A stretch of 14,705 nucleotides of DNA from a bacterium (GTDB taxonomy: Bacteria > UBP7 > UBA6624), in NCBI GenBank assembly GCA_014384545.1, contig JACNFQ010000023.1:1-14705 (forward strand), in the 5' to 3' direction. A program made the translations under genes and the position numbers. Positions within the stretch are counted from its first letter, which is position 1, and every line of letters begins with the position of its first letter. Shown here piece after piece: positions 11,480 through 14,532 of the stretch. Below the pieces are notes generated by a model. That model did no database searches. It was not told the DNA's origin and was given only the letters and a program-made list of their open reading frames with translations.

Positions 11480-12409
11480 TTGTCTAGGCGGCTCCTTATC
11501 GTGGAGGCAGCTTACTTGGGCGACCTCGTCATGACGACCCCTCTCATGGGCGCTGCCTTACGAGACAAGTGGGAAGTGCATGTCGCGATTAGACGCTCCT
11601 CTGTGGGCGTATTGGAGGGGTTGATTCCCCAAGAGCAGATTCATATCCTCCCCTCCCATTTTCTCTCGGCACAGAAAAAACTGCAATCGATTCGACCCCA
11701 GTTGACGATTGTCACCCATCGAGCCCACTCCTCCGTCCTTGCGGCTCTTGGGGTAAGTCCGCGTTGGGGTTACGGTGGTGGTCGGTCTCTCTTGCTGTCA
11801 GGGACTGTTCGATTTGACCCGATGGCTCATCGCGTAGAAAACCACATCAATCTGGGCAGAGCAGCTGGGCTTGCCCTCCCTATGGATGAACCCCTCGTTT
11901 TACGGACTACGGCTGGGGATTCTCCATCACTTCCTGAAGGAGCTTTGGTCCTAAACCCCAATGCTTCGTGGCCTGAAAAAGCTTGGACCACTCCTCGGTG
12001 GGTACGCCTTGCGAAAGCACTGGGAGAGAGATTGAGTGTTCGTCCCGTCGTTGTAGGAGGACCTAATGATAGAGAAAGATGCTCTGCGATTGCAAATGGT
12101 TGCGGTGGGATTGACCTAGGGGGCAAGACCGACTTGCCTATGCTCAAGCGCGTCTTGGAACGCGCTCGTCTTCTGATTAGCCATGATTCTGGTCCCGCTC
12201 ACATCGCCGCTGCTTTGGGCACACAAGTCATTTCTGTCTTTGGTGCGACCCACCCAGAACTCGTCGGTCCATGGCCCCCACGAACGGGATTCGTTCTTTC
12301 TTCCCCAAGAGCGAAATCTCCTCCCCCTCCAAAAGGAAAGAGAGAACGGTGGATTGACGGAGTCCACTGGAAACATGTCGTAGCACTCGCATCCGAACTA
12401 TGGGTATAA
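11480..12409 (+). CDS. GT9-family glycosyltransferase (ADP-heptose:LPS heptosyltransferase-like)
   Basis: Family-9 glycosyltransferases transfer heptose to the lipopolysaccharide core at the cytoplasmic face of the inner membrane. The 309-residue product has the N-terminal LIVEAAYLGDLVMTTPLMGA (6-25) with the Asp of 'GDxVxTTP' (D15), then LNPNASWPEKAWTTPRWVRL, starting at 158, VVVGGPNDRE (190-199) and the nucleotide-sugar site SHDSGPAHIAAALGT (234-248) followed by VFGATHPELVGPW (253-265). These are WaaC/WaaF/RfaF hallmarks, but the exact acceptor cannot be assigned. Start: TTG with AAGGAG ten bases upstream, five bases after the channel stop. Its 3' end overlaps rdgB by ten bases. With rmlB two genes upstream it suggests surface glycan synthesis, but no other LPS gene is present. 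Confidence 0.88.
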   Translation: MSRRLLIVEAAYLGDLVMTTPLMGAALRDKWEVHVAIRRSSVGVLEGLIPQEQIHILPSHFLSAQKKLQSIRPQLTIVTHRAHSSVLAALGVSPRWGYGGGRSLLLSGTVRFDPMAHRVENHINLGRAAGLALPMDEPLVLRTTAGDSPSLPEGALVLNPNASWPEKAWTTPRWVRLAKALGERLSVRPVVVGGPNDRERCSAIANGCGGIDLGGKTDLPMLKRVLERARLLISHDSGPAHIAAALGTQVISVFGATHPELVGPWPPRTGFVLSSPRAKSPPPPKGKRERWIDGVHWKHVVALASELWV

Positions 12410-13008
12410 GACTTCTCTTTGGAACGACTTCTAAGGGGAAATGGTCGGAGGCAAGCCAAGCACTTCCATCACTAGAGGTTCTCTTTCCTAGAGATTTGGG
12501 ACTTGAGGGGGAACCGATTGAAGACGGAGCGACTTTTGCAGAGAACGCTCGAATCAAGGTCCACTGGTATGCCTCCGCAAGTGGAGAGCGCCTCGTCTTA
12601 GCCGAAGATGCGGGATTGGTCGTTGATGCATTGGGAGGAGCGCCCGGGGTCTATTCCTCTAGGTATGGTCAGGATGACGCTTCTCGAAACCTTCGCCTTC
12701 TTGAAGAATTGGAGAAAGTTCCAGCGGAAAAACGGACCGCCACCTTCGTCTCCCTCTTTGCCCTTTGGGTCGGTCCCGCAACGACCTTATTGTGGGAGGC
12801 TAGGACAACCGGTTTTATCCTAGATGCTCCTAAAGGAGAAGGTGGTTTTGGGTATGACCCTCTCTTCTTTCATACAGGTCTGGGAAAGAGTTTTGCTCAA
12901 GCCTCAATCCCCGAAAAAGCATCCGTTTCCCATAGGGGAAAGAACCTTGATTCACTCAAAAGGTGGCTCAAAGGATGGAGGCACCCCACCCGTCCTTATC
13001 GTCCTTAG
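12400..13008 (+). CDS. rdgB: RdgB/HAM1-type dITP/XTP pyrophosphatase
   Basis: Hydrolyses non-canonical purine NTPs (dITP, ITP, XTP) to monophosphates so that they are not built into DNA or RNA. The 202-residue product has the N-terminal LLFGTTSKGKWSEA (5-18), DGATFAENARIK (42-53), LAEDAGLVVDALGGAPGVYSSRYG, starting at 67 and containing the catalytic Asp (D70), GEGGFGYDPLF (146-156) and SHRGKNLDSLKRWL (177-190). In the first motif the usual Asn of (S/T)xNxxK is Ser11. It starts with ATG inside the end of the glycosyltransferase gene (10-base overlap). It is the last gene of the plus-strand array: its TAG is 16 bases from the end of the convergent minus-strand operon, and no clear terminator hairpin was seen there. 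Confidence 0.93.
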   Translation: MGIRLLFGTTSKGKWSEASQALPSLEVLFPRDLGLEGEPIEDGATFAENARIKVHWYASASGERLVLAEDAGLVVDALGGAPGVYSSRYGQDDASRNLRLLEELEKVPAEKRTATFVSLFALWVGPATTLLWEARTTGFILDAPKGEGGFGYDPLFFHTGLGKSFAQASIPEKASVSHRGKNLDSLKRWLKGWRHPTRPYRP

Positions 13009-13024: not shown

Positions 13025-14011
13025 TCAGTCGCGGAGGAATGGGATGAGTTTGGCTCGCGTAGCCACACCGATACCTTTTACCGATGTGAGGGTATCTACA
13101 GAGAGATTTCCCTCTTCTCTTGCTGCTATGATCTTTGCCGCTTTGCTGGGACCGATACCCGGTAACCAATCTAGCTCTTCAGCGGTCGCCGTAGATAAAG
13201 AGAGTTGCGTCGCTTCAATCAACAACCGCTCCAAATCATCCACGGCTGAATGGTCCACGCCGTGCTGATGTTGAGCAGCTCTCTTGAATGCATCCTTCAA
13301 AAGGGAGTCAGGAGTCTCTGATGCCATCTCTTCCATAATCGCCACAAAAGCGGCGTGGTTATCTAGATGTCCTCTCTTTGCAGTCCTAAAAGCTGCCAAA
13401 CGAGTCCACGCCTCGTCAAAAACGCCCCCCATCAATTCCGTTGAACCCTCTCCCATGACAAAGTCGCCAAAAGGAGTTTGGAGCTTTTTTCCTCCCTCCA
13501 CTTGGATGGTGAATGGTTGGGACATCGGGCTGAGAGACTGAATATACGCCAAAACAGCTCGCATGTTCTCCATCGGGAACGTCGCTGGCGAATAGATAGG
13601 GGGCATTGTAGGGGGCCAAGGCTCGATACAGGTTTCTTCAGAGACCACTTTACACGCAATCGCTTCGGCAGGGTGATGAATGCTGTGAAAAATATAGTGG
13701 TCATCAACCAAGACCTTTGAACCATCATCAAGGGTCTCATACCGCCCCCACAATCCTTTCCAAGAGGGTCCAACGATCGCGGAACCATCCACACTGTGAC
13801 ATGCTTGGCAAGCGATGGGCGTAGCAGAAAGCCTCAAATCTGCCCCTTGGGCAACGAGTGCAGGATCTGGTGAAAAGGGGAGAAAGAGAACTTGATCACC
13901 TTCTTCAATGACCAAGGCGGGAGGGGAAGCGACCCATTGCCCCCCCTCCATACTGACAGCGACTGTATGTGTTGATGCCAAAAGGGCAACCCATCCTAAA
14001 TAGAGTCTCAT
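13025..14011 (-). CDS. Exported cytochrome c - helix-hairpin-helix fusion protein
   Basis: A 328-residue protein with an unusual domain pairing. Residues 1-20 look like a short signal peptide (hydrophobic 3-19, possible cleavage near VAVS). A class-I cytochrome c domain follows (about 48-162): heme motif CQACH (68-72), GPSWKGLWGR (81-90), DDGSKVLVDDHYIFHSI (95-111) and a probable axial Met in TMPPIY (M136), ending AYIQSLSP. It resembles the heme domain at the C-terminus of cytochrome oxidase subunit II, but there is no CuA site. Extra cysteines C120 and C128 lie between heme motif and Met. A helical middle part without recognised family (about 165-265, with HQHGVDH at 248-254) leads to an HHH domain (about 269-326): LSTATAEELDWLPGIG and TSVKGIG, the ComEA/PsbU pattern. 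ATG overlaps the upstream stop (ATGA) with AGGAGG nine bases before it. Domain calls are firm; function is unknown. Confidence 0.85.
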   Translation of the reverse strand: MRLYLGWVALLASTHTVAVSMEGGQWVASPPALVIEEGDQVLFLPFSPDPALVAQGADLRLSATPIACQACHSVDGSAIVGPSWKGLWGRYETLDDGSKVLVDDHYIFHSIHHPAEAIACKVVSEETCIEPWPPTMPPIYSPATFPMENMRAVLAYIQSLSPMSQPFTIQVEGGKKLQTPFGDFVMGEGSTELMGGVFDEAWTRLAAFRTAKRGHLDNHAAFVAIMEEMASETPDSLLKDAFKRAAQHQHGVDHSAVDDLERLLIEATQLSLSTATAEELDWLPGIGPSKAAKIIAAREEGNLSVDTLTSVKGIGVATRAKLIPFLRD

Positions 14012-14532
14012 TGAATCAATCCTCCTAAATCTTCTTCTTTCTCTTCAGGGATTTGGGGCAACCCCGCCCCTTTCAATGCACCACCTTCAACACCCTCCAA
14101 AGCATCTATCCATCCCGGAATGTCTTGGACCACAAAAGCGAATCTCACTCTACCCTTTGGTGTAATTCCCGTAACGATAAGATGACGCATCGATTGCCCC
14201 AAAAACTGAGTGCCCAACGTAGCAGTCTCTAACTCTGTCAACGACAGCTCTACTTCTCTCCTCGGAAAGCCTCGCATGAAGGCGACTTTCTTCTTTGATA
14301 GGAGCAGCGTACCTTTCGCCATCCCTTGCCCCAGCCCCAGTGATTCTCGCCCCAAATACCCTGCGCCATTCTCTAAGCGGATAATGCCATCGCCTCTGTG
14401 AAATGCTAGAAATCTCCGCAGCTCTAATCGTGCCGAAACCGCAAGAACACTCCACAAGACCCCCAAGAACAAGGGCACCAATAGGTAAAGGCGTGTCGAT
14501 AGCCAAAACCATACATCAGCTAGGGGAAACAT
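14008..14532 (-). CDS. Small membrane protein with possible PH/GRAM-like domain, function unknown
   Basis: I do not recognise a named family. The 174-residue product has one membrane helix near the N-terminus (about 13-36, LYLLVPLFLGVLWSVLAV) followed by a basic stretch (RLELRRFLAFHR), so most of the chain should be cytoplasmic by the positive-inside rule. Residues about 72-145 look like a series of beta strands (GTLLLSKKKVAFMRG, REVELSLTELETATLG, RHLIVTGITPKGRVRFAFVV) ending in a helix with PGWIDALEG. This is the pattern of bacterial PH/GRAM-like domains, but the assignment is only by shape. The tail is acidic (PEEKEEDLGG). It starts with ATG nine bases after the carA stop, without a clear Shine-Dalgarno, and its TGA overlaps the ATG of the cytochrome-HHH gene, so the two are probably translated together. 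Confidence 0.75.
   Translation of the reverse strand: MFPLADVWFWLSTRLYLLVPLFLGVLWSVLAVSARLELRRFLAFHRGDGIIRLENGAGYLGRESLGLGQGMAKGTLLLSKKKVAFMRGFPRREVELSLTELETATLGTQFLGQSMRHLIVTGITPKGRVRFAFVVQDIPGWIDALEGVEGGALKGAGLPQIPEEKEEDLGGLIQ
14021..14026 (-). promoter_or_regulatory. Ribosome binding site of the cytochrome c-HHH gene
   Basis: On the minus strand AGGAGG lies nine bases before the ATG at 14011-14009, inside the end of the upstream membrane-protein gene. It confirms the start that gives the signal peptide. Confidence 0.8.

Follow-up and report, generated by a model that had tools for sequence, protein, structure and literature searches.

Outside the cytoplasm, the helix-hairpin-helix (HhH) folds of PsbU and of the type II secretion (T2SS) pseudopilin GspK are protein-contact modules. 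The DNA receptor ComEA, described from Bacillus subtilis, Geobacillus stearothermophilus (PDB 8dss) and Vibrio cholerae, carries an (HhH)2 domain in an extracytoplasmic setting, where one lysine (K164 in B. subtilis, K166 in Geobacillus) is central to DNA binding and the purified K166A protein bound no DNA (PMC9747964). HhH domains of the ComEA type are also known fused to other partners and strengthen DNA binding, as in DNaseTA (PMC4777378), and ComE1 of Pasteurella, which has an HhH of this type, binds both DNA and fibronectin (PMC2601033). The third point of reference is the heme c domain of caa3 oxidase subunit II from Rhodothermus marinus (PDB 1w2l). Here we describe a bacterial gene that joins a monoheme cytochrome c domain of this last kind to a ComEA-type (HhH)2 domain, a real and well-defined new combination of two known domains that is apparently undescribed, that occurs as a singleton, and whose function we infer.

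The gene lies at 13025..14011 (stop included) on the minus strand of the window, which is the whole of a contig of 14,705 nucleotides (C72), and it starts ∼700 bp from the contig end. It is a single ORF without interruption, 984 bp long without the stop, and encodes an exported-looking protein of 328 amino acids, arranged as cytochrome c, a middle region and the HhH domain. A Shine-Dalgarno sequence, AGGAGGA (14020..14026, minus strand), stands 8 nt before the ATG (14011-14009), and the start overlaps by ATGA with an upstream gene on the same strand (14008..14532); these two features argue that the fusion gene is real. The upstream gene, with which it likely forms one transcript, encodes 174 amino acids with a hydrophobic N-terminus, matches no family and has no match in the two family relatives compared (G001 and G002). 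By eye only, the C-terminal part of its product is PH-like. The codon score of the whole fusion gene is 0.049, within the 0.046 to 0.097 of ten other genes in the window, whereas randomly recoded synonymous versions come out at −0.088 (sd 0.026), and G+C is even along the gene. The rdgB gene (12400-13008) is convergent with it. Farther upstream on the minus strand, the final bases of the window appear by eye to be the end of a carA-like gene. The window contains neither com nor cox genes. Residues 1-20 (13952..14011, minus strand) contain the hydrophobic stretch LYLGWVALLA, and a hydropathy scan and inspection by eye make a signal peptide plausible; the mature protein would be acidic, with a net charge of about −18.

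The cytochrome portion (residues 50-161; 13529..13864, minus strand) has 1w2l as its best match by phmmer, Foldseek and Z score alike. The phmmer match reaches E 1.2e-11, and an AlphaFold model, built on an alignment of the fusion protein with 25 domains from other genomes and its own genome, fits 1w2l with a Z score of 11.7 and 2.5 Å over 97 residues at 33% identity. In these 26 aligned sequences, C68, C71 and H72 of the heme-binding motif and the distal M136 are invariant, so that heme ligands and predicted fold are both shared with the Rhodothermus domain. The Pfam Cytochrom_C profile falls just under its cut-off on the fusion protein (residues 67-160, 18.7 bits vs 21.3), and in the whole-genome scan the domain scored 18 bits, passing the cut-off only with frame neighbours added. 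Alignment and model confirm the predicted class I monoheme His/Met cytochrome c of the COX2-tail type. Compared with caa3 subunit II, however, the fusion protein has no CuA domain and its locus no oxidase operon, and compared with the heme domain itself it adds the HhH tail and a 10-residue insertion (residues 120-129; 13625..13654, minus strand) that holds C120 and C128. No other cytochrome in the 26-sequence alignment has this insertion, which the model renders as low-confidence strands. In the cytochrome tree, the domain falls loosely (84/86), on a long branch, near two cytochrome c domains of its own genome, and the separate trees of the cytochrome and HhH domains are too weak to name a donor. 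Besides those on contigs C68 and C74, other cytochrome c domains of the genome are found in a COX2-cytochrome c gene beside COX1 (contig C69) and on contig C78. Several other CXXCH proteins are encoded in the genome, and heme c is therefore evidently made and exported by this organism.

At the other end of the protein, residues 269-327 (13031..13207, minus strand) match HHH_3 (PF12836) at 38.2 bits, above the cut-off of 27, and the whole-genome PF12836 scan agrees. With this match, the sequence-only reading of the gene holds in its main features, namely the uninterrupted frame, CQACH at residues 68-72 with M136, the COX2-tail cytochrome c, and a C-terminal HhH domain with the hairpins LPGIG (283-287) and VKGIG (311-315). 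A phmmer search with the HhH part finds Geobacillus ComEA (2e-9) and a ComEA-related protein of Thermus (8.7e-8). The model of residues 160-328, with a pLDDT of about 95 across the HhH part, fits Geobacillus ComEA (8dss_B) with a Z score of 11.6 and 1.1 Å over 63 residues at 51% identity. The NCBIfam comE profile TIGR01259 (7.1e-12) gives 45.4 bits against a cut-off of 152.35 and is matched at positions 58-116 of 120 only; outside the (HhH)2 domain, the fusion protein matches no other part of ComEA, the SLBB/oligomerization part included, and it carries a heme domain.

We aligned the DNA-contacting residues of ComEA with the fusion protein, where K290 corresponds to the central lysine, K164 in B. 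subtilis and K166 in Geobacillus. Geobacillus T196 aligns with T318 and K199 with K321; in place of K195 and K201 the fusion protein has A317 and I323. Expressed through the four mutagenised lysines in the DNA-binding domain of B. subtilis ComEA (K164, K193, K197 and K199), two are kept as K290 and K321, and K193 and K199 give way to A317 and I323. Since a lysine stands at the K290 position in 5 of the 21 HhH rows compared, its retention is suggestive only. The HhH domain has a net charge of 0, its inter-HhH loop is two residues shorter than that of ComEA, and the usual HGxF is missing from it.

PsbU was also considered as the nearest relative of the HhH domain and was rejected. Its family, PF06514, is absent from the Pfam matches of the fusion protein up to E 1, and a search of PDB sequences with the HhH part gives no PsbU at E values up to 10. 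Structurally, PsbU (7n8o_U) fits the HhH model with a Z score of 5.2 and 2.3 Å over 58 residues, far below ComEA, and XcpX (6utu_F) reaches a Z score of 6.0. Both alignment and predicted fold place the module as clearly ComEA-like and only distantly PsbU-like, so that of the two extracytoplasmic parallels drawn in the sequence-only reading the one with ComEA finds support and the one with PsbU does not. PsbU resembles what is proposed for the fusion protein in having an extracytoplasmic HhH fold associated with electron transfer, but it has no fused heme.

Between the two domains, the middle region (residues 165-266; 13214..13519, minus strand) has no match in Pfam or NCBIfam. Both models predict short, low-confidence strands followed by four helices, with no convincing fold match when the region was compared together with its neighbouring domains. 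The stretch HQHGVDH is modelled between two of the helices, and a metal site there is speculation. The sequence-only reading proposed metal or disulfide chemistry for this stretch and for C120/C128, a putative role to which the analysis adds the position of the two cysteines in their unique insertion.

Searches of 60, 386 and 57 genomes, about 520 overall with overlap, gave no second frame with both domains among the matches listed; the 386-genome search scored no more than five candidates in each genome and might have overlooked a divergent fusion. The frames with cytochrome c matches were mostly ∼300-350 amino acids long, like a COX2 that carries a heme tail, and the ComEA-type HhH matches were separate from them. 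In 20 HhH-bearing stretches from other genomes, mostly with long frames, no HhH frame contained CXXCH, and plasmid records gave single-domain matches only. A PHROGs match (transposase, 0.0053) was put down to chance. The match spanning 1-193 in L066 belongs to a different, diheme protein. The 8-residue pattern scan of genome contigs found no relatives and carries little weight, since a scan of this type likewise found none for the window's RelA/SpoT gene. The literature search found no paper describing a cytochrome c-HhH fusion, in line with the sequence-only reading. The nearest published case comes from Niveibacterium and Aquincola, where an HhH gene is adjacent to mtrC (PMC8805035); there too an HhH protein is associated with c-type cytochromes, but the genes are separate and the cytochromes are multiheme surface proteins. 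DNaseTA and the metallo-beta-lactamase-HhH proteins resemble the fusion in joining a ComEA-derived HhH to an unrelated domain, but the partner there is not a cytochrome c; it is either a nuclease or a domain of lactamase fold with nucleic acid as its presumed substrate (PMC4777378).

The host genome (G000) is 1.39 Mb in 107 contigs and 79% complete, the phylum being compared through three genomes. HHH_3 occurs in it four times, and the other three occurrences are in proteins that are apparently membrane- or lipid-anchored. Two tandem ComEA-like genes lie beside leuS (L015, contig C14, 920-1839, minus strand), one with an SLBB-like domain just below the cut-off. The small ComEA-like protein of the genome gives weak matches to the T2SSK and PsbU profiles. 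Another locus (L039, contig C86, 913-2673, minus strand) encodes a lipoprotein-like protein with an M48 metalloprotease domain (HEAAH) and HHH_3 C-terminal to it; the same arrangement is found in both family relatives (L079 and L080), and extracytoplasmic use of HhH therefore recurs in the lineage. Type IV pilus-type ATPases are present in G000. ComEC gave no match in G000, G001 or G002 (79, 86 and 62% complete), and its absence from the family genomes is likely. The fusion protein itself has no match in G001 or G002.

Because the heme ligands are intact, the HhH module is complete and a helical spacer separates the two, we tentatively favor an exported electron carrier whose HhH tail anchors it outside the cytoplasm, most likely to double-stranded DNA. 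In this proposal, a monoheme His/Met cytochrome c, kin to the heme domains of caa3-type oxidases, would have gained the spacer and a ComEA-type (HhH)2 module. In the periplasm, the heme domain would carry electrons one at a time, probably delivering them to the organism's oxidase chain or taking them from it, while the tail would fix the carrier to something extracytoplasmic; double-stranded DNA could be held through the two GxG hairpins together with K290, T318 and K321. What the analysis shows is the anatomy, namely the domains with their heme ligands, the fold of ComEA type and the retained residues; export, attachment of heme, the redox partner, a DNA ligand and any role in the cell are inferred. 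DNA is somewhat more likely than protein as the ligand of the tail, because the module is of the ComEA type, the key lysine is kept, and a nuclease fused to a ComEA-type HhH holds DNA more strongly (PMC4777378). Against a DNA anchor stand the A317 and I323 substitutions, the zero net charge of the HhH domain on an acidic protein, a K290 that is not rare, the lack of a ComEC match in three incomplete family genomes, a single occurrence without conserved neighborhood, and the ability of a ComEA-type HhH to bind protein. The more specific proposal of a redox protein residing on extracellular or periplasmic DNA, with electron transfer localized on, or sensing, that DNA, we consider rather unlikely.

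Several of these points would fit a tail that serves as a protein-docking module and seats the cytochrome on a complex of the membrane or periplasm (an oxidase, pilus or secretion machinery) with no DNA binding, a close rival to which we give somewhat less credence than to the anchored carrier as a whole. The HhH folds of PsbU and GspK contact protein, the HhH model has matches in XcpX (Z 6.0) and PsbU (Z about 5), and the small ComEA-like protein has its weak T2SSK and PsbU matches. The lack of net positive charge, fibronectin binding by Pasteurella ComE1 and the family-wide HHH_3 of the M48 protease point the same way, whereas the domain is much nearer ComEA than PsbU or GspK, keeps the key DNA-contact lysine, and has no partner gene adjoining it. 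A part in natural transformation as a heme-bearing DNA receptor that acts like ComEA, one of the roles suggested in the sequence-only reading, is possible but improbable. It draws on the ComEA-type domain, in which K290, T318 and K321 are kept, on the type IV pilus-type ATPases and on the two further ComEA-like genes, but those two genes could already fill the role, neither com nor pil genes lie near the fusion gene, and the domain lacks two ComEA lysines and has a net charge of 0. A role in transformation is also unlikely because ComEC was not found in the three family genomes, all of them incomplete, and we know of no part for heme in DNA uptake.

The remaining readings question the fusion itself. 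An assembly artefact, with two genes joined by sequence error or in a chimeric contig, is about as improbable: the gene comes from a single genome in 107 contigs, near a contig end and with no second copy found, but it has an open frame of 984 bp, a single start preceded by a strong ribosome-binding site, an operon-like overlap, even G+C and, over the whole gene, codon use like its neighbors, and in the model a folded-looking middle region of 100 residues links the two domains. We give even less weight to the possibility that the domains were joined recently and that no selected function attaches to the combination, the tail being a passenger on an ordinary electron carrier; absence from the two family relatives and the long branch of the cytochrome domain would suit it, but both hairpins, the predicted HhH fold and the heme ligands are intact, and neutral decay is not expected to keep them.

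Because both halves are well understood, the fusion offers a direct test of whether ComEA-type HhH modules also serve, apart from DNA uptake, to position an electron carrier. Should the favored DNA binding be true, a heme protein would be physically linked to extracytoplasmic DNA, which bears on how biofilm or periplasmic DNA could participate in electron transfer; should protein docking be true, the protein would join PsbU as the second example of an electron-transfer complex that makes use of an HhH module.

Among other respiratory genes of the family, COX1 is present in both G001 and G002. In G000, a COX4-type membrane domain is fused to cytochrome c between CoxIII-like and CtaG-like genes (L013, contig C74, 1396-2133, minus strand). 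On contig C68 (L014/L042), a seven-CXXCH protein with a C-terminal cytochrome c domain of the caa3-tail type adjoins a cytochrome b-like gene; for respiratory genes this arrangement is unusual.
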